From assembly GCA_016938675.1 (NCBI GenBank), contig JAFGUF010000042.1, forward strand, positions 1-64,000: 64,000 bases of DNA. The letters run 5' to 3'. The DNA is from Clostridia bacterium (lineage in GTDB: Bacteria; Bacillota; Clostridia; Christensenellales; UMGS416). How positions within the stretch are numbered: position 1 is the first letter of the stretch; each line of letters starts with the position of its first letter. Positions 27,435 to 37,661 of the stretch are shown here, in pieces. The notes under the pieces were generated by a model, which worked only from the letters and a program-made list of their open reading frames with translations, was not told the origin of the DNA and made no database searches. Made by a program: the position numbers and the translations under genes.

Positions 27435-27570
27435 GCAATATTTTAAGCAATTATATTACCATTGAAAAGAACGAATAAGCATCAGCAAGGAAAGCGACAA
27501 ACAAATTTACTGTATAATATAACAAATTTAAGCATTCAATTATTATCATATTAGCACAAATAATCAATAA

Positions 27571-27742: not shown

Positions 27743-28819
27743 ATGGCTAAAAAGTTAAGCATAGTTTTGTTAGTACTTGTATTAGTTCTATCATTCGCAG
27801 CAGGCTGCCAGAAAGATTCAGGCGGAAACAAAGTTGGCGTTTTAATGCCTACTAAGGACCTGCAGAGATGGAACCAAGACGGTGACAACATGAAGCAACA
27901 ATTGGAGGCTAAAGGTTACGAGGTAGATCTACAATATGCAAGCAATGACGTTGCTACTCAGGTTTCTCAGATTGAGAACATGATAACAGCTGGCGTTGAC
28001 GTTCTTGTTATCGCATCTATAGACGGAACTGCTCTTGGCGCAGTTTTGGAAGATGCTCACAAAGAAGGTATTGTAGTAATAGCTTACGACAGACTTATAA
28101 TGGGAACAGAATATTGTGACTATTATGCTACTTTCGATAATGAAAAGGTTGGTACTATCCAGGGCCAGTATATTGTTGACACATTAGGCTTAGCTGATGG
28201 CGAAACAGGACCTTTCACAATGGAAGTATTTGCTGGCTCACCTGACGACAACAATGCAAAATTCTTCAACAAGGGTGCTATCGACGTATTAACACCTTAC
28301 ATTGAGAGCGGCGTATTAGTAATCAAATCAGGTGAAGGCAAAACAAATGACGAATGGACAAGCATCGGTATCCAGGGATGGGCTTCAGAAGGCGCTCAGG
28401 ACAGAATGGACAACCTGCTCACAGCTTATTATGCTGACGAAAACATTGACGTAGTTCTGTCACCAAATGACAGCTTGGCTCAAGGTATAACAGCAGCATT
28501 AGACGCAGCAGGCTACGGCACAGGCGACAAGCCATTCCCAGTTCTTACAGGCCAGGACTGCGATGTTAACTCTGTTAAAAACATTATTGCTGGCAAACAG
28601 TCAATGTCTATCTTCAAAGATACACGTGACTTGGCAGCTCGCGTTGTAACAATGGTTGATCAGGTTCTTGCAGGCGAAGAAGTTGAAACAAACAACACAT
28701 ATGACAACGGCGTAAAACAGGTTCCATCATATCTTTGCGATCCTAAGTTCGCAGACATCACTAACTATCAAGAACTTCTAGTCGACTCTGGCTATTACAC
28801 AGCTGATCAGTTAAACTAA
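27743..28819 (+). CDS. chvE: Monosaccharide ABC transporter binding lipoprotein, ChvE type
   Basis: A 358-residue sugar-binding protein. Its signal peptide ends in lipobox SFAAGC (Cys about 22). The type-I periplasmic-binding fold begins VGVLMPTKDLQRWNQDGDNM, a ChvE/XylF signature, followed by ITAGVDVLVIASIDG and VIAYDRLIMG. ChvE-type proteins bind several aldose monosaccharides such as glucose, galactose, arabinose and xylose; the ligand here is unknown. RBS is AGGAGGAG. Codon use is strongly biased, as for phnD. A hairpin follows before mmsA. It feeds the MmsA-MmsB pump. Confidence 0.92.
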   Translation: MAKKLSIVLLVLVLVLSFAAGCQKDSGGNKVGVLMPTKDLQRWNQDGDNMKQQLEAKGYEVDLQYASNDVATQVSQIENMITAGVDVLVIASIDGTALGAVLEDAHKEGIVVIAYDRLIMGTEYCDYYATFDNEKVGTIQGQYIVDTLGLADGETGPFTMEVFAGSPDDNNAKFFNKGAIDVLTPYIESGVLVIKSGEGKTNDEWTSIGIQGWASEGAQDRMDNLLTAYYADENIDVVLSPNDSLAQGITAALDAAGYGTGDKPFPVLTGQDCDVNSVKNIIAGKQSMSIFKDTRDLAARVVTMVDQVLAGEEVETNNTYDNGVKQVPSYLCDPKFADITNYQELLVDSGYYTADQLN

Positions 28820-28858: not shown

Positions 28859-28894
28859 TATGGCGACAGCATAGTATGTTGTCGCCATATTTTC
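28859..28894 (+). terminator. Intra-operon hairpin between chvE and mmsA
   Basis: TATGGCGACA (28859-28868, starting T-A) pairs perfectly with TGTCGCCATA (28880-28889), followed by TTTTCT. It resembles the phnD-phnC hairpin in place and design, so it probably sets a high binding-protein to pump ratio by partial termination or by protecting the 3' end. Confidence 0.75.
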
Positions 28895-28910: not shown

Positions 28911-30446
28911 ATGGCACAACACATTTTAGAAATGAAAAATATAACCAAAATCTTTCCGGGTGTTATAGCGCTTGACAAGGTTAACCTTCAGGTTGAGGAG
29001 GGCGAGATACACGCACTTGTTGGGGAAAACGGCGCTGGAAAATCGACTCTGATGAATGTTCTCAGCGGAATATATCCCTTTGGCGATTATGAAGGGGATA
29101 TATTATATAAGGGCGAGATTTGCAGGTTTAAGAATATAAGAGAGAGTGAACAAAAGGGAATTGCCATCATCCATCAGGAACTGGCATTAAGCCCGTATAT
29201 GACCATTGCTGAAAATATTTTTATAGGCAATGAAAGACAAAAAAACGGAGTAATTGACTGGGATGAAACCAATTTTCAGGCAGCTGAAATTATGGAGCAA
29301 ATCGGAATAAGGGAAAAGCCCTCTGCAGTTATTAGGAATATAGGCGTAGGTAAGCAGCAGCTGGTTGAGATAGCAAAGGCGCTTGCAAAAAAATGCGAGC
29401 TTCTTATTCTGGATGAGCCGACAGCAGCGCTGAATGATGACGATGCAAACCATTTGCTTGAACTGCTGAAGAAACTCAACAAAGAGCAGCATATAACATG
29501 TATTATTATTTCGCATAAATTAAATGAGATAGCAAAAGTAGCAGATAGAATCACCATTATACGAGACGGACAGGTCATTGAAACGCTTGAAAATGTTCCC
29601 GGAGGCATTAGTGAAAGCCGCATAATAAAGGGAATGGTTGGCCGTGAAATGGTGGACAGGTTCCCCAAACGCGAATCGCACATTGGCGATGTTGCATTTG
29701 AAGTTAAAAACTGGACAGTATATGACCCGCTTGACGATGAAAGAATCGTAATAGATGATGTAAGCATTAATATTAGAAAAGGCGAGGTCGTAGGCCTTGC
29801 AGGACTGATGGGCGCAGGCAGAACGGAATTTGCTATGAGCGTATTCGGAAAAGCTTACGGCAAAAACATATCAGGAACGATAATAAAGGACGGCGAAGCA
29901 ATCCACCTTAACAACGTTTCGCAGGCAATAGACCATGGCCTTGCATACGTAACAGAGGATAGAAAAAATGCCGGCCTAGTGCTTATACAAGACATTAGAA
30001 AAAATACTTCAATGGCAAACCTGAAGTCCTTAAGCAATAAGGGCGTTGTAGACGATGACAAGGAAATACACATCGGAAAAGAATATGCAGAAAAGCTTAA
30101 GACAAAGTGCTCAAGTATATTCCAGAAGGCAGGCAACCTCTCAGGAGGCAATCAGCAGAAGGTTGTACTGAGTAAGTGGCTTTTTGCCGAGCCGGATGTA
30201 TTGCTATTGGATGAGCCGACAAGAGGAATTGACGTTGGCGCAAAATACGAAATATACAACATAATTAACGATATGGCAAGCGATGGAAAATGTGTTTTGG
30301 TTATATCGTCTGAGTTAACGGAAATCCTAGGCGTAGCGGATAGGATATATATCATGAATGAAGGCAAAATAGTAGGAGAGATGCCCAAAGAGAAGGCTAC
30401 ACAGGAAAACGTAATGCAATGCATAATCAGAAGTGCAAGTAATTAA
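28911..30446 (+). CDS. mmsA: Monosaccharide ABC transporter ATP-binding protein (tandem ATPase)
   Basis: A 511-residue protein with two fused ATPase domains, as in RbsA, XylG and GguA. Domain 1 has Walker [10 protein letters not shown] (about 38-46), Walker [12 protein letters not shown] and a degenerate signature [13 protein letters not shown]. Domain 2 has [10 protein letters not shown] in place of a standard Walker A, then signature LSGGNQQKV and [13 protein letters not shown]. Such asymmetry is normal for the family. Its start has AAGGAG upstream, and it lies 11 bp before mmsB. The closest family is the MmsA/GguA multiple-monosaccharide class, based on the chvE partner. Confidence 0.93.
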
Positions 30447-30457
30447 GGAGATTAGAG

Positions 30458-31645
30458 ATGATAAGAAAATTAAGAGAGGCCCTAAGGCATAATTTTAGAG
30501 AATACGCAATGTTTTTTGCGCTCATTGCCATCGTAGCTTTTTTTGGTATCGCGACAAACGGAATATTGTTGGCGACAAGAAACGTTACAAGGCTGATTTA
30601 TCAAAACAGCTATATTCTTATCTTAGCTGTAGGTATGCTGATGTGCATACTGACAGGAGGTAACATTGACCTGTCTGTTGGTTCAGTTGTTGCCCTTGCA
30701 AGTGCTATGTCCGGACTTTTGGCTTCCGTTCTCGGATGGCCAATATGGCTTTCAATTATTCTGGCTATGCTGGTTGGAGTACTGGCTGGTGCGTGGCAGG
30801 GATACTGGATTGCTTATATTCAGATTCCGGCGTTTATCGTTACTCTAGCTGGAATGCTTGTATTCAGGGCGATTAACAACATTATACTTCAAGGCGAAAC
30901 TGTTGGCCTGCCTGATGCATACAAAGTAATAGCAGCAAGGCCTGTTGCTGACTTTGTAGGAGAGATTAATGTAGGACAATTCGGCCTCAACGGCACATCA
31001 ATGCTTGTTGGAGCTCTAGCAATATTGATTTATATCGCAGTTACTCTTTGGAACAGAAGAACAAAGAAGGCAAAAGGCTATGAGGTAATGGATCAGAGCC
31101 TGCTGATACTCAAAATGGTATTGATCTCACTGGTTATAGCGTTCTTCACATTGTGGCTAAGCCTTGATGACGGACTGCCGATAATTCTTGTAATCTTCGG
31201 TGTACTAGCTGGAATATATATCTTCATCACGAATAAGACAGTATTAGGAAGGCATCTGTATGCCCTCGGCGGAAACGCCAAGGCGGCAGAACTTTCAGGA
31301 ATAAAGACCAAGAGAATATTATTCCTTGCCTATACTAACATGGGTATGCTATCTGCAATATCCGGAATAGTGTACGCAGGGCGCCTTAACGCATCATCAC
31401 CGATTGCGGGCAAAGGATTCGAACTGGATGCTATTGCTGCATGCTTCATTGGAGGAGCTTCAGCTACCGGCGGAGTTGGAACTGTAATGGGAGCTATTAT
31501 CGGCGGACTGATAATGGGTATCTTGAACAATGGTATGTCAATAATGAGTGTTGACGTATTCTGGCAGGACTTCACAAAGGGATTGGTTCTTCTAGGTGCA
31601 GTTGCATTTGACGTTATGTCAAAATCCAAGTCATCTGTAAAATAA
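30458..31645 (+). CDS. mmsB: Monosaccharide ABC transporter permease
   Basis: A 395-residue permease of the RbsC/XylH/GguB group with about ten membrane segments. Family motifs are MLMCILTGGNIDLSVGS (about 60-76), IPAFIVTLAGMLVFRA, YALGGNAKAAELSGI and GKGFELDAIAACFIGGASATGGVGT. The length, longer than RbsC, and the extended central loop NRRTKKAKGYEV fit the GguB/MmsB class. RBS is AAGGAG. A terminator follows, so the transporter is one unit and the sensor genes start a separate one. Confidence 0.93.
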   Translation: MIRKLREALRHNFREYAMFFALIAIVAFFGIATNGILLATRNVTRLIYQNSYILILAVGMLMCILTGGNIDLSVGSVVALASAMSGLLASVLGWPIWLSIILAMLVGVLAGAWQGYWIAYIQIPAFIVTLAGMLVFRAINNIILQGETVGLPDAYKVIAARPVADFVGEINVGQFGLNGTSMLVGALAILIYIAVTLWNRRTKKAKGYEVMDQSLLILKMVLISLVIAFFTLWLSLDDGLPIILVIFGVLAGIYIFITNKTVLGRHLYALGGNAKAAELSGIKTKRILFLAYTNMGMLSAISGIVYAGRLNASSPIAGKGFELDAIAACFIGGASATGGVGTVMGAIIGGLIMGILNNGMSIMSVDVFWQDFTKGLVLLGAVAFDVMSKSKSSVK

Positions 31646-31660
31646 AATTAGTGTTTTGCT

Positions 31661-31697
31661 AAGGGCTGTCAATTTAAGGCAGCCCTTAAGTGTTTTT
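31661..31697 (+). terminator. Terminator of the chvE-mmsA-mmsB operon
   Basis: AAGGGCTG (31661-31668) pairs with CAGCCCTT (31680-31687), followed by AAGTGTTTTT. Confidence 0.75.
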
Positions 31698-31841: not shown

Positions 31842-32396
31842 ATGAAAGCAAAAACCAGCTATAGAAAAAATGATGGAACAACAGTGGTTGAGTACTTTAA
31901 GGTAAGCCAGCCGTTTGAATTCAGATATAACGTACTAAAGAACGTTCTTGAGTCTGAAGGCGAGGCTGTCATGTTTATTGATACAAACAGCCGCCTCAAA
32001 AAGCCGGAAAAAAGGATAGAAGCATATTTTGACGAGAACAATGTTGAATATTCTATATTTAAAATACCTCAGAGAGAAGGCAAGCTATTTGGCATGTTTG
32101 TAAATGTATTCAGAAAGCCGCAGGTTAAGCTAACAGAAAAATATATAATATCCCGCATTACAGCAGAAACCTTTTCTAAGGAATTCTTTGATGAATATTT
32201 GGCCAATTATGATATAGCGCTGGGCTTCGGCGCAAAGCTTGGTATCGGCGAGATGGCGGATGATTACGGTGAAAATGTAACCGAGTTGTTTTTTGACAAG
32301 GAATTTTTTGAGAACTTTATATATGATTCAATAATCTTTGCATCTGCACGCAGTTCTATGGACATACGAAAGATTGTTGCGGAGTATGATGGATGA
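31842..32396 (+). CDS. Unknown soluble protein heading the sugar-sensor operon
   Basis: A 184-residue protein that I do not recognise. It has no signal peptide or membrane segment and a mixed alpha/beta look. The N-terminus is basic (MKAKTSYRKNDG) and there is a repeated aromatic/acidic pattern in the C-terminal half (ELFFDKEFFENFIYDS). The frame opens at GTG 31836, but AAGGAG occupies that site, so I start at ATG 31842. Its stop overlaps the start of the membrane-bound sugar sensor by 4 bp, so the two are translationally coupled. A role in the sensing system is likely from context only. GFGAKLGIGEMADDYG is a glycine-rich stretch worth noting. Confidence 0.7.
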   Translation: MKAKTSYRKNDGTTVVEYFKVSQPFEFRYNVLKNVLESEGEAVMFIDTNSRLKKPEKRIEAYFDENNVEYSIFKIPQREGKLFGMFVNVFRKPQVKLTEKYIISRITAETFSKEFFDEYLANYDIALGFGAKLGIGEMADDYGENVTELFFDKEFFENFIYDSIIFASARSSMDIRKIVAEYDG

Positions 32397-33409
32397 ACAA
32401 ACTTTTTAAAATACTTTTGTGGGTTTTCTTTGTGGCACTTACAGTATCTTTGATCGGGTCACTTTATTATTACAATAAGATAAACAAAATATATCAAGAA
32501 GACGTCACATATGTATTTGACGAAAACCCGGAGTATCACTACTCGCTTATAATCGCAGATAACGGTGATATATACTGGCAGGACTTCAAGGAAGGCGCGT
32601 ATGAAGCCGCGAAAGCAAATGACGCTGCAATTGAGATGAACATTGTGGACGACATAAACACTGCTGATACAATAATTGAGTATCTGGATATAGCCGGAAA
32701 GTCAAAGGTTGACGGAGTTATAGTTCTGGGACAAAACTCAACAGCTCAGGACGATGCCATCAACAGCCTTATTGCGCAGGGCATTAATGTGGTCGTAGTA
32801 GGACAGGAATCAAAGAACACTACAACCAGCTATTTTGTCGGTACGAACAATTATGAATACGGTGCGCGGGCAGGGGAATTCCTTAAGGAAACTGCTAATG
32901 ACTACGAACCCATAAATATCGCCGTAATTCTGTCTGCAGACTACAGTAATAACGATAAGGCGACGGCTTCATCCAGCGACATAATGATGACCGGGCTTCA
33001 GACATATATACAGGAGCATAGCAATATGAACCTGCTGGTAACAAAAAACTGCGACAGCGAACTGCTTGGCTCGGAGGACATCGTTAGAGATATTTTAACA
33101 GAATATGAGGATGTAACCGCAATATTTTGCACCAGCACTATGGACACGGAGGCAGCAGCCAGAGTTGTTGTCGAAAGAAACCTGGTTGGTCAAGTCAAAA
33201 TTATTGGTACAGGGATTACAGAGAGCATAATTGCCTCCATAGAAAAGGGCGTAGTTTTCGGTACTATAGACAAAAACGGATATCAGGCCGGCAAAAGCAG
33301 CGTGGAATTTTTGTGCAACAGGGAAACGGACACACTGCAGCCTGATTTTATATCAGTTGACCTGGATGTCTATACCGCAATGAACATTCCATCAGGTCCT
33401 GAGGATTAG
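32393..33409 (+). CDS. Membrane-tethered sugar-binding sensor protein (XylFII-like)
   Basis: A 338-residue protein with one uncleaved N-terminal membrane segment (about 8-27, no lipobox) and an extracytoplasmic type-I periplasmic-binding fold (about 48-335). Signs of the fold are YSLIIADNGDIYWQDFKEGAYEAA, VDGVIVLGQN, YFVGTNNYEYGARAGEFL and FGTIDKNGYQAGKSSVEFL. Standing directly before a LytS-type kinase, it matches the arrangement of XylFII in clostridial XylFII-LytS-YesN systems, where the binding protein senses the sugar and docks on the kinase. The ligand is not known. Aromatic residues near the cleft (YW) fit sugar stacking. Confidence 0.85.
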   Translation: MNKLFKILLWVFFVALTVSLIGSLYYYNKINKIYQEDVTYVFDENPEYHYSLIIADNGDIYWQDFKEGAYEAAKANDAAIEMNIVDDINTADTIIEYLDIAGKSKVDGVIVLGQNSTAQDDAINSLIAQGINVVVVGQESKNTTTSYFVGTNNYEYGARAGEFLKETANDYEPINIAVILSADYSNNDKATASSSDIMMTGLQTYIQEHSNMNLLVTKNCDSELLGSEDIVRDILTEYEDVTAIFCTSTMDTEAAARVVVERNLVGQVKIIGTGITESIIASIEKGVVFGTIDKNGYQAGKSSVEFLCNRETDTLQPDFISVDLDVYTAMNIPSGPED

Positions 33410-33418
33410 CCGGGGAAT

Positions 33419-34924
33419 ATGATGGAGTTTATTAGGAATTTTTTTAAAAACAAGGTGCACAAGAGCATCAGGACAAAAATGATAGCGCTCTTCATAGTTA
33501 CGACACTGCTGACAAGCTTCACCAGTATTTTCATCCAGAGGACATCGGATAACCTGATACTGAAGATGGATGAAATGTTCGCTGCCAATGTTAAGCTCGA
33601 TCAGTTTGTTGAGCTGCTTGAGGAAGTGGACGGCAACCTGGTAGACTATCTCGTTACTGACAACTCAGAGAGTGTGCTTAACTATCACAAGAAAAAAGAT
33701 GAATTCAGAGAACAAGCCGAGAGCATGTTTGAAAATATTATGGGCGTATACAGCCAAGGAGACCTGATATATAAAGATATTTTGTATATGGTTGAATCAT
33801 ATCTGGTGGAGACAGATGCCGCGGTGGCGGCAAGGCTGGTAGATGACGGCAACGAATACTCGAAAAGGTATAGCGAGGCAAGCATTATATCAGGGTACAT
33901 AAAGGCCTACGCAGACAAGCTGAACCTGAAATACCTTGATACCAATACAGCACAGTATAGGAACATATCGCAGGACTTATCCAAGCTAATGTTTGCTAAT
34001 ATTATATTGCTGGTTTCGGTAATCTGCCTTAATCTGATGATCATAATCTATATCGCATATAATCTTACAAATCCGATTATTAAGCTGTCTCATTCCGCAG
34101 TGGAGATAGCAAAGGGCAATTTTGACGCTGATGACATTACTGTGGGAACTGATGATGAAATAAGCGTGCTGGCAAATGCATTCAACGAAATGAAGCACAG
34201 CATTAAAAAATATATAATCGTACTAAAGGACAAGGCAGACACAGAAACGCAGCTTTTTGAGCAGAAAATCGAGAATCTGGAGATGCAGTCGCTTCTTGAT
34301 GTTGCGGAGCTTAAGGCTCTGCAGATGCAGATAAATCCGCATTTTCTTTTCAATACTCTTAACGCTGCCGTGCAGCTTGCTACAATAGAAGGGGCAGACA
34401 GAACCTCCGTGTTCCTCGACGATATATCAAAGATATTCAGATATAATGTAAAGAGCCTGGACAGAGTTGTTAAAATATCTGAAGAAATTGAGATGGTTAA
34501 AGCCTACGGCAGTATGTTCGTTGTGCGCTTCGGCGACAAGGTGCACTTTGACTTCGACATTGAGCCGGGGATAAAAGACTTTGATGTTCCGCCCCTCATT
34601 ATTCAGCCATTTGTCGAGAATGCGACTATCCACGGCGTAGGTGACATGGAGAGCGAAGGAAGAATAACCGTAAGGATGACGCAGGAGGGAGACACCGCGA
34701 GAATAGAAATCCGCGATAACGGACTTGGCATGGATGAGGCCACAAGGCTAAAAATATTAGCAGGAGAGCCTGCCGAAAACACTAGTGCAGGCCACACAAC
34801 CGGAATCGGGATACAGAATGTGCTGAAGAGGCTTCAGATATTTTTCAGGACAGATGATGTGGTAGAGATTGAAAGCTCGCCGGGATACGGCACGAAAGTA
34901 ACGCTTAAGATCCCCATCAAATGA
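33419..34924 (+). CDS. Sensor histidine kinase, LytS/YesM family
   Basis: A 501-residue kinase. It has TM1 at about 19-38, an extracytoplasmic helical region, TM2 at about 172-194 and a HAMP linker (about 195-250). The His_kinase domain carries the phospho-acceptor in MQINPHFLFNTLNAA (about 302-316), and the HATPase domain has QPFVENATIHG, DNGLGMDE and GIGIQNVLKRL. The extracytoplasmic region lacks an obvious ligand fold, consistent with sensing through the preceding binding protein. It lies 9 bp downstream of that gene and 30 bp upstream of its regulator. Confidence 0.93.
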   Translation: MMEFIRNFFKNKVHKSIRTKMIALFIVTTLLTSFTSIFIQRTSDNLILKMDEMFAANVKLDQFVELLEEVDGNLVDYLVTDNSESVLNYHKKKDEFREQAESMFENIMGVYSQGDLIYKDILYMVESYLVETDAAVAARLVDDGNEYSKRYSEASIISGYIKAYADKLNLKYLDTNTAQYRNISQDLSKLMFANIILLVSVICLNLMIIIYIAYNLTNPIIKLSHSAVEIAKGNFDADDITVGTDDEISVLANAFNEMKHSIKKYIIVLKDKADTETQLFEQKIENLEMQSLLDVAELKALQMQINPHFLFNTLNAAVQLATIEGADRTSVFLDDISKIFRYNVKSLDRVVKISEEIEMVKAYGSMFVVRFGDKVHFDFDIEPGIKDFDVPPLIIQPFVENATIHGVGDMESEGRITVRMTQEGDTARIEIRDNGLGMDEATRLKILAGEPAENTSAGHTTGIGIQNVLKRLQIFFRTDDVVEIESSPGYGTKVTLKIPIK

Positions 34925-34954
34925 TCAAAAACAAAGAAGAAGGAAAAACACGGC

Positions 34955-36538
34955 ATGTATAAACTGATGGTGGTCGACGATGAACAGATTACTATTGAAT
35001 CTGTAAAATACATCGTTGAGAATGAAATGGACGATATAAAAGTAGTAAGTACTGCTATCTCCGGCAGAATGGCTATAGAGCAGGCTCATTTGGAGCGCCC
35101 GGACATAGTGATGATGGATATAAAGATGCCCGGGATAAACGGGCTTGAGGCAGTGCGCGAAATAAAAAGGATGCACAACAATATAAAGTTTGTTATAGTG
35201 TCTGCCTTTGAATACTTTGAGTACGCGCAGCAGGCAGTGGAGCTGGGCGTTACGGAGTATCTGACAAAGCCTGTCAACAAGGCTTCAATTATTGATACTC
35301 TGCTAAAAATAAAGGCTGAACTTGACAGGGAAAAAATTAAATTTGACCAGCAGATAAAGACCCAGGAAAAAATGAAGAAGATGCTAGAAGACGTAGAGCA
35401 CAGCTGCATATATTCTCTGCTTCTGTCTCAGGGGCACAGAGTTAAAATCAGCAAATACAAAGAGCTATTTGAGATAACTGAAAAGCAGGGATATATATTT
35501 GTGCTTCAGATAAAAGGCGACATGGAGCAGGAAACAGTGTGGCTGGATGAAAGCGAAGGAATACAGAAATTTTATAGCTTTTTCAGGGACGAACTGAAAA
35601 GAAAAAGCCGCTGCATAGTCGGGCCGATGATGTTTGACAGAGTGGTTGTCTATATGCCGCAGGATATGAAGGATGAGTATCAGCAGAGGGTAAGCTCAAT
35701 CGATTATCTTGAGGGCATACTTTCGGTTCTCAGCGAAAGGCGCGCAGGGCACTACAAGATGGGAATCGGCTCCGTAAGGGATGACGAGAGCATCAGCATT
35801 TCTTATCAGGAAGCTCTGAAGGCGCTGAACTACAGCGCGGACAATAAGGCCGTGCATATAGCGGACGTCACTATGAACGCCGGCAACACGAACTTCGATA
35901 TATTTACCGATGAGCAAAAGCTTATTAACCTGATAGAAAAGGGCGATGAGCACGCCAGCACAAATCTGCTGAACGAAATTTTCAATAAGTATCCGGAGTT
36001 TTACACACGAGAAAACATAAGAAACAGGCTGGTTGAATTGATGGTGGTTGCACACAGGATAGCCATAGAGAACGGAATAGAAAACGACAGCTATCTGGAA
36101 TACTCGAATTACATAAACCAGATATTAAGCTGCGACAGCAGTGATACATTTAAGTCAATGTGCATAGGGAAGATAAGGTATATAGTCAACAAAGTGCAGA
36201 TGACGAAAAAGAAAAAGATTTCATCAATTGTCGACAAAGCAAACAGGATAATTGATGAACGGTTCGGCAGCGAGCTTACACTGGATGACATATCAAAGGA
36301 GCTCAGTATAAGTCCGCAGTATTTTTCTAGGCTCTACAAGGATGAAATGGGAATAAACTTCATAGAGCAGCTTACAAAAAAGAGGATTGACAACGCGAAG
36401 CGACTGATAGAAGAAGGAGAATATTCCGTAAAGGAGATTTGCTATATGTCCGGGTATTCAGACCCGAACTATTTCAGCAGATTGTTCAAAAAGCACGAAG
36501 GGGTATCTCCGTCACTTTACCAGAAAAGCAAAGGCTGA
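34955..36538 (+). CDS. Response regulator, YesN/AraC type
   Basis: A 527-residue regulator. Its receiver domain (about 1-125) has VVDDEQ, phospho-Asp in VMMDIKMPGINGLEA (Asp about 55), SAFEYFEYA and the switch Lys in YLTKPV. A long middle region (about 130-415) contains a coiled-coil-like start. The C-terminal AraC-type double helix-turn-helix (about 425-525) ends YSVKEICYMSGYSDPNYFSRLFKKHEGVSPSLYQ. RBS is GAAGGA. Expected targets are the chvE-mmsAB operon and its own operon; no operator has been proven. Confidence 0.94.
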   Translation: MYKLMVVDDEQITIESVKYIVENEMDDIKVVSTAISGRMAIEQAHLERPDIVMMDIKMPGINGLEAVREIKRMHNNIKFVIVSAFEYFEYAQQAVELGVTEYLTKPVNKASIIDTLLKIKAELDREKIKFDQQIKTQEKMKKMLEDVEHSCIYSLLLSQGHRVKISKYKELFEITEKQGYIFVLQIKGDMEQETVWLDESEGIQKFYSFFRDELKRKSRCIVGPMMFDRVVVYMPQDMKDEYQQRVSSIDYLEGILSVLSERRAGHYKMGIGSVRDDESISISYQEALKALNYSADNKAVHIADVTMNAGNTNFDIFTDEQKLINLIEKGDEHASTNLLNEIFNKYPEFYTRENIRNRLVELMVVAHRIAIENGIENDSYLEYSNYINQILSCDSSDTFKSMCIGKIRYIVNKVQMTKKKKISSIVDKANRIIDERFGSELTLDDISKELSISPQYFSRLYKDEMGINFIEQLTKKRIDNAKRLIEEGEYSVKEICYMSGYSDPNYFSRLFKKHEGVSPSLYQKSKG

Positions 36539-36558
36539 ACAACTTTACGGGGGGCAAT

Positions 36559-37623
36559 ATGAAAACCGGAAAAAGATTGATACCGATTTGGGCCATTTTT
36601 ATGACTGTGGCCTTTCTACTGACCATGGCAGCCTGCAAGAAAGAAGAAGCATTTATAAATAATGACGATACCATAATAATCGGTTTCGTTATTGAAACGA
36701 TGACCGTGGAAAGATGGCAGCTTGACAGGGATATTTTTGAGGCCAAGGCAAAGGAGCTGGGTGCCAAAGTAATAGTGAAGAATGCCTATGAAGACGCCGA
36801 ACGGCAGGATCAGATAATTAGGGATTTGGTGGCTCAGGGGGTTGATACGCTGGCTGTTGTGGCGTACGACAAAGAGAGCCTTGCCGACGCCGTGAAATAC
36901 GCCCATGAGCATAATGTAAAAGTTATAGCCTATGACAGGCTGATTATGGGTGCAGATGTTGACCTGTATATATCTTTCGATAACTACGAGGTAGGCAGGC
37001 TGATAGGGCAAAGCGCGGTGGACAATGTGCCGGAGGGCAGATACCTGATTTTAAACGGAGCACAGACGGATAACAACGCATTCATGCTAAATGAAGGGTG
37101 CATGAGCGTGCTGCAGCCGTATATAGATGCCGGAAAAATCGAAATTGTCGACGAGACATGGGTAGAAGCATGGAGGGATGAGGTTTCCTACCAGTATGTC
37201 ACAGACAAGATAGAGCAGGGTATTGAATTCGACGTTATTATAGCCGCCAATGACAGAGTTGCAGAAGGTGCCTTGAATGCTCTAAGTGAAAACAGGCTGA
37301 CTGACCAGGTGTATATAACAGGCCAGGACGCGGAGCTGGGCGCATGCCAAAGGATAGTTGAAGGCATACAGGACATGACAGTGTACAAATCAATCAGTGT
37401 GCTGGCAGAGGGCGCTGCGGAAATTGCCGTAAAGATGGCAAAAGGTGAGGACATAGGCGACTGTGGGCTGTATGACGACGGCAAATATATGGTGAAGTAT
37501 ATTGCATATGAGCCTGTTGCCGTAAATAAGGACAATATAAATGAGATAATTATAAAAGGTGGTTTCTACACTATTGAGCAGGTATATGCAAACATAGACA
37601 AGGAGAACTGGCCGGAAAATTAG
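36559..37623 (+). CDS. XylF-like sugar-binding lipoprotein without its own pump
   Basis: A 354-residue binding protein with a lipobox in its signal peptide (TMAAC). Its N-terminal fold matches the D-xylose-binding protein XylF: IGFVIETMTVERWQLDRDIFEAKAKELGA, later VIAYDRLIMGADVDLYISFDN. It shares VIAYDRLIMG with ChvE in this window but is clearly a distinct paralogue. The frame continues upstream to 36439 inside the regulator gene, but GGGGGG precedes ATG 36559, where the signal peptide begins. It ends the sensor operon, and a terminator follows. It may deliver sugar to MmsA-MmsB or serve signalling. Confidence 0.88.
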   Translation: MKTGKRLIPIWAIFMTVAFLLTMAACKKEEAFINNDDTIIIGFVIETMTVERWQLDRDIFEAKAKELGAKVIVKNAYEDAERQDQIIRDLVAQGVDTLAVVAYDKESLADAVKYAHEHNVKVIAYDRLIMGADVDLYISFDNYEVGRLIGQSAVDNVPEGRYLILNGAQTDNNAFMLNEGCMSVLQPYIDAGKIEIVDETWVEAWRDEVSYQYVTDKIEQGIEFDVIIAANDRVAEGALNALSENRLTDQVYITGQDAELGACQRIVEGIQDMTVYKSISVLAEGAAEIAVKMAKGEDIGDCGLYDDGKYMVKYIAYEPVAVNKDNINEIIIKGGFYTIEQVYANIDKENWPEN

Positions 37624-37630
37624 AATGCTT

Positions 37631-37661
37631 AAAGGGGTGCTTAAAAAAGCATCCCTTTTTT
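37631..37661 (+). terminator. Terminator of the sugar-sensor operon
   Basis: AAAGGGGTGCTT (37631-37642) pairs with AAGCATCCCTTT (37647-37658) with one G-T pair, and the T-run continues to 37661. Confidence 0.85.

Follow-up and report, generated by a model that had tools for sequence, protein, structure and literature searches.

The window (the whole stretch of DNA that was analysed, 64,000 nucleotides) carries a sensor operon encoding two SBPs, a histidine kinase, an AraC-type regulator and a small protein without family assignment, preceded on the same strand by a sugar ABC importer. The features of the region are as follows.

27743–28819, + strand: chvE, lipoprotein SBP of a multiple-monosaccharide ABC importer (NF040907, 478.9 bits; cut-off 460)
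28859–28889, + strand: terminator-like hairpin between chvE and gguA
28911–30446, + strand: gguA, ABC ATPase of the importer (NF040905, 825.5 bits; cut-off 810)
30458–31645, + strand: gguB, permease of the importer (NF040906, 476.5 bits; cut-off 450)
31660–31688, + strand: terminator-like hairpin between gguB and the sensor unit
31842–32396, + strand: P184, 184 residues, no Pfam or NCBIfam match above cut-off
32393–33409, + strand: tethered SBP, XylFII-like (PF13407, 7.8e-34), with an uncleaved N-terminal TM anchor
33419–34924, + strand: LytS/YesM-type histidine kinase with an extracytoplasmic sensor domain, HAMP, His_kinase and HATPase_c
34955–36538, + strand: YesN, with a receiver (PF00072), a GGDEF_2-like middle part and an AraC-type HTH (PF12833)
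36559–37623, + strand: XylF-like lipoprotein (PF13407, 3.3e-55; TIGR02634, 291.1 bits)
37631–37658, + strand: terminator-like hairpin closing the sensor unit

The genes of the sensor unit are closely spaced, P184 overlapping the tethered SBP gene (−4 bp) and the following gaps being 9, 30 and 20 bp. The initial annotation had proposed five ORFs in this place and order, all of which were confirmed, with the classes of the last four backed by Pfam and NCBIfam; the terminator it had put at the end of the unit was located as the hairpin at 37631–37658, and it had correctly pointed to both an extra gene and two extracytoplasmic SBPs for a single kinase. Absent from it was the complete chvE-gguA-gguB importer, which ends 196 bp upstream of the sensor unit and of which all three components (3/3) scored above the NCBIfam equivalog cut-offs, gguA being the sole GguA over the cut-off in the whole genome. 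Because a complete sugar pump thus lies so close to the separate sensor unit, the earlier description of the lipoprotein as ‘pump-less’ is misleading. Upstream of chvE, AACAAATTTA occurs twice at 21-bp spacing (window 27500–27530), and the 12-mer AAATTTAAGCAT of the second AACAAATTTA copy is found again upstream of P184 (31751–31762). The repeat is a possible candidate for a YesN site; no regulatory motif common to the regions upstream of chvE and of P184 rose above shuffled sequence.

The tethered SBP has no lipobox, and its nearest solved chains were 5xsd, 5xsj and 5xss (E about 1e-25). A profile of the kinase family (12 kinases, A7) matched the sensor chains of Clostridium beijerinckii LytS (5xsd_L, E 1.5e-8; 5xsj_L, E 3.7e-8), and these solved-chain matches of SBP and kinase sensor domain back the earlier view of the locus as a relative of XylFII-LytS-YesN. 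The C. beijerinckii system, which is encoded with XylFGH, shares with the present locus the types of SBP, kinase and regulator, their order, the TM-tethered SBP, a LytSN-related sensor domain and a XylF gene after yesN (PMC7017829). A tethered SBP paired with a LytS/YesM-type kinase is also found in AraP-AraS-AraT from Geobacillus, whose chains 6sw4 and 6swj were close matches. CuaD-CuaS-CuaR from Ruminiclostridium cellulolyticum resembles the locus in having a dedicated signalling SBP beside a transport SBP and a YesN/AraC-type regulator, but its signalling SBP is a lone lipoprotein, its sugar is cellobiose and it has no tethered SBP (PMC10384115).

A search for the tethered SBP returned 3 of 297 genomes of the order and 27 of 391 genomes of the class, the window being counted in both. 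Besides the window, 29 neighbourhoods were read; 28 of these and the window make up the 29 cassette loci, while the remaining one (L073) was set apart as a classical module. Wherever the contig permits reading, the order tethered SBP-LytS-YesN-XylF-like was found (29 loci, each in a different genome of the class), and the same four-gene order is present in Acetoanaerobium noterae. In all loci that could be read, the XylF-like gene lies behind yesN. This holds for four loci that lack a nearby pump gene (L055, L058, L060 and L064) and for L052, where the only pump is a truncated one at a distance of 2.8 kb. The XylF-like gene follows yesN at tight spacing or with an overlap in most loci, and the gap to a following pump SBP is 133–387 bp. 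The pump itself is found upstream of the cassette in the close relatives of the window (L005, L019, L047 and L048, plus L071 and L072) and downstream in most other loci. Since the XylF-like gene is kept behind yesN even without an intact pump nearby, it is a regular member of the cassette, and the tethered SBP, LytS, YesN and the XylF-like protein constitute a conserved four-gene cassette. The claim that the lipoprotein falls outside the described core did not hold, both for this reason and because the module XylFII-LytS/YesN-XylFGH, as described, already has a XylF gene behind YesN (PMC7017829). When genome contigs were scanned with the XylF-like alignment, the record of a single genome (G074) matched. 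The surroundings of 40 other CUT2 ATPases were also read, and none held an additional triad whose tethered SBP was clearly intact. In one locus (L050) a single ORF matches both LytS and YesN and in another (L053) LytS is in two pieces; the joining or splitting of the kinase gene likely reflects frameshifts or a fusion. L058 (genome G316) has two tandem sensor operons: approximately 4 kb from the cassette lies another LytS/YesN-like pair, preceded by an ORF of its own.

When the tethered SBP of the window was aligned to XylFII (5xsj), AraP (6sw4) and 6gq0, it showed G, M, G and K at the positions that D, R, D and Q occupy in these proteins. The four columns, which we take to be the sugar-coordinating D89, R141, D215 and Q235 in RbsB numbering, were defined from the alignment together with the generally known RbsB/XylF positions, and N was accepted for D in the counts. 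Tethered SBPs of the cassettes keep between zero and two of the four canonical residues (n = 28), 15 of the 28 keeping none, and the window protein likewise has 0. Among control CUT2-type SBPs from neighbouring loci, supplied by the neighbourhoods of the 40 other CUT2 ATPases, 29 of 43 keep all four residues and 8 of 43 keep three, and the four sensor-type SBPs whose pockets are intact (XylFII, AraP, 6gq0 and that of L073) have 4/4 each. The locus thus differs in its tethered pocket from both the C. beijerinckii system and AraP-AraS-AraT. General structural positions are still conserved in the pocket-degenerate proteins, which argues that the pocket loss is not mere overall divergence. We infer from these replacements that the tethered protein would bind no sugar.

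A pocket devoid of the canonical residues may, on the other hand, take a different ligand. At the tethered pocket positions D, E or R persists in some lineages, and the replaced positions are partly conserved within a clade, one example being the motif D-[RK]-N-G found at position Q235. This conservation would fit a dual-ligand sensor in which the tethered SBP takes a non-pyranose or charged ligand, the XylF-like protein reports xylose and LytS integrates the two signals, as would the influence of both LevQ and LevT on the sugar specificity of LevQRST (PMC3043104). Clades differ, however, in the residues that replace the canonical ones; this argues against one new ligand, and we regard such an arrangement as improbable. 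Dual-ligand or antagonistic sensing had been put forward for this locus on the initial annotation; a division of labour fits better, because the tethered SBP lost most of its pocket residues and the XylF-like protein keeps them.

The state of the tethered pocket could also be compared with the presence of a XylF-like protein outside the cassette loci. L073 is a classical XylFII-LytS-YesN-XylFGH module with a tethered pocket of 4/4, and its single SBP between yesN and gguA is a true XylF that passes the TIGR02634 cut-off (453.4 bits). Two further loci were reached via kinase similarity on PLSDB records before their pockets were inspected. That of Acetoanaerobium noterae has a tethered pocket of 1/4, and its yesN is followed first by a XylF-like gene and then by a second SBP and a pump; that of Metabacillus dongyingensis has a tethered pocket of 4/4 and no XylF-like gene. 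Both intact-pocket tethered sensors, L073 and Metabacillus, are thus without an extra XylF-like protein, within a small set of intact-pocket tethered loci that comprises these two here and the published XylFII and AraP. Rhizobial plasmids also gave intact-pocket matches. The Acetoanaerobium record NZ_CP154629.1 is labelled a plasmid but is 2.6 Mb in size with only 4 annotated features, and is therefore probably a chromosome.

The XylF-like lipoprotein of the window scored 291.1 bits against the transport XylF model TIGR02634, below its equivalog cut-off of 389.55, and in this the locus is again unlike the C. beijerinckii system, as it is in the pump, which here is ChvE-GguAB with its own SBP. 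In an alignment to 3m9w the contact positions R-W, D-R, D-x-N, W, N-D, D and K were retained in essentially all copies, scored against a list of positions that we take to be the xylose contacts of XylF; at three comparable pocket columns the canonical D, D and K are present in 27 of 27 XylF-like proteins. A tree that also included pump SBPs and solved XylF placed the 27 XylF-like proteins of the cassettes in one long-stemmed clade (SH-aLRT 100). The clade adjoins the transport XylF of L073 and is separate from transport XylF as well as from the pump SBPs, a further departure from the C. beijerinckii arrangement. The XylF-like proteins of eight loci belonging to one clade (L060, L062, L064, L065, L066, L067, L069 and L070) have a hydrophobic anchor and no lipobox, as does that of L063, which is cut at the contig end; this TM-anchored form differs from the lipoprotein of the window and resembles a sensor SBP. 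The XylF-like protein may be a sensor-dedicated paralogue of transport XylF. Neither pocket loss nor a sensor-dedicated XylF clade was found described in the open-access papers searched.

The XylF-like lipoprotein could still supply the GguAB pump, which is near in most loci. An ordinary three-component sensor would then be at hand, in which the tethered SBP senses in the manner of XylFII and the XylF-like protein, together with ChvE, delivers xylose to GguAB. Such a role agrees with the place of XylF as the transport SBP of XylFII-LytS/YesN-XylFGH (PMC7017829), with the full set of XylF-type contacts in the XylF-like protein and with the adjacent pump of most loci. It is difficult to reconcile with a degenerate tethered pocket, with a XylF-like gene that stays by yesN where no intact pump is adjacent, with pumps that carry their own SBP, and with a XylF-like protein that is TM-anchored in one clade and forms a clade apart from transport XylF. 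We therefore consider a second transport SBP unlikely, and the sequence data favour a four-component sensor.

The locus is best read as a XylFII-LytS-YesN variant with a resemblance to LevQRST of Streptococcus mutans, in which two SBPs serve one kinase, LevQ for complex integrity and LevT for selectivity (PMC3043104). Compared by description, the two systems share two extracellular SBP-family proteins, one kinase and one regulator; LevQRST differs in its gene order and in controlling a fructanase and a PTS, and predictions give LevS as many as 5 TM segments (PMC3043104), versus about 2 in LytS here. As a tested precedent for two SBPs per kinase, LevQRST supports the four-component reading (PMC3043104), as do the agreement of Acetoanaerobium, Metabacillus and L073 on pocket state versus presence of a XylF-like protein and the TM-anchored, lipobox-less XylF-like proteins of one clade, which are like a sensor SBP. 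The loss of the tethered pocket next to an intact companion suggests that the sensing duty may have shifted from one protein to the other.

In the sensor that we propose, the tethered XylFII-like protein would be a pseudo-SBP that has lost its sugar residues and holds LytS in a complex as an adaptor. Outside the cell, sugar would be bound by the XylF-like lipoprotein, which in the loaded state would act on the tethered protein and on LytS. The kinase would then phosphorylate YesN, which would activate chvE-gguAB and probably also its own operon, and ChvE would be left with delivery to the pump. We give about an even chance to such a clostridial four-component sugar sensor, with the XylF-like protein as the sugar binder and the tethered pseudo-SBP as adaptor to LytS beside the importer.

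The ligand is, as a best guess, D-xylose or a similar aldose. A xylA over the cut-off was found in 21 of 29 cassette genomes versus 1 of 21 genomes chosen without the cassette (raw counts, uncorrected for phylogeny). The operon in G074 is flanked by xylA, a xylB-like kinase gene and araD, and the xylA of the window genome is located on another contig.

P184, the first gene of the unit, encodes a protein predicted to be cytosolic, with no predicted signal or TM segment. Relatives of equal length with 25–30% identity are encoded in two other genomes (G074 and G477), and P184 is thus a true gene, albeit of a rare family. In G074, which belongs to a different family, one relative occupies the same slot (29% identity) and its gene overlaps the tethered SBP gene by 17 bp. 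A second G074 relative (L004:10454–11011) lies in a sugar operon between genes for a PfkA-type 6-phosphofructokinase and a tagatose-kinase-like protein, with no sensor, and the G477 relative (L009:1501–2061) lies between GNAT and PAS-GGDEF genes with no sensor adjacent, the G477 cassette itself being without P184. The cassette slot is filled in 2 of 29 loci and empty in 27, and in the window's own clade 3 of 5 cassettes lack the gene, close relatives without it including G011, G449 and G521; from this patchy occurrence it was either ancestral and then lost, or gained twice. No relatives were found in GTDB genome contigs, viral contigs or plasmids.

A profile search of solved chains with P184 gave no match. 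The AF2 model of P184 has a pLDDT of 79.7. Two AlphaFold models, from different homologues, share a beta-alpha-beta-beta-alpha-beta core in which the loop joining the middle strands is disordered. Foldseek returned nothing at E<=0.001 for the models, and the best Z values in VIA were 3.5 and 6.2; the best matches were generic ferredoxin-like or ACT-type domains, with PII-like among the weak ones. The models thus predict a ferredoxin-like core. A GGDEF-like identity had been considered, as a weak profile match to the C-terminal part of a GGDEF was obtained in two related genomes, but it was rejected as unproven because hhalign to GGDEF gave 1.6% and controls gave similar nonsense alignments; no GGDEF was among the structural matches listed for the two models (Foldseek, VIA).

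That P184 is integral to the sensor, for example as a cytosolic modulator of LytS, is quite improbable: two genomes from different families, whose proteins are 29% identical, have the gene in the same slot and overlapping that of the tethered SBP, which speaks for it, but the slot is empty in nearly all cassette loci, close relatives included, and relatives reside among sugar kinase genes or beside GNAT and GGDEF genes with no sensor. The earlier suggestion that the gene is part of the sensor agrees with the slot in G074 and is weakened by its presence in only 2 of 29 loci and by the two relatives elsewhere. Likewise, the extended system had been expected to fail if the gene were genome-specific or scattered and the lipoprotein belonged to another transporter; the scattering was found, and the lipoprotein was found as a regular member of the cassette. 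P184 is an optional accessory gene outside the core, co-translated with the tethered SBP, and we would guess that its product acts in the cytosol as an accessory, perhaps as a regulator that binds a small molecule.

Across Clostridia, we would tentatively propose, at somewhat less than even probability, that a XylFII-type receptor became a ligand-blind pseudo-SBP and that XylF, formerly a transport protein, was captured as the dedicated sugar receptor of the same kinase, giving a serial relay of two SBPs ahead of a single histidine kinase. If true, a sensor can hand ligand recognition to a recruited transport protein while the old receptor is kept as a scaffold, and many anaerobes would have tethered SBPs that carry a sugar-sensor annotation but do not bind the sugar themselves. 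Two proteins and four point positions would then allow a direct test of the role of the second SBP in such systems.
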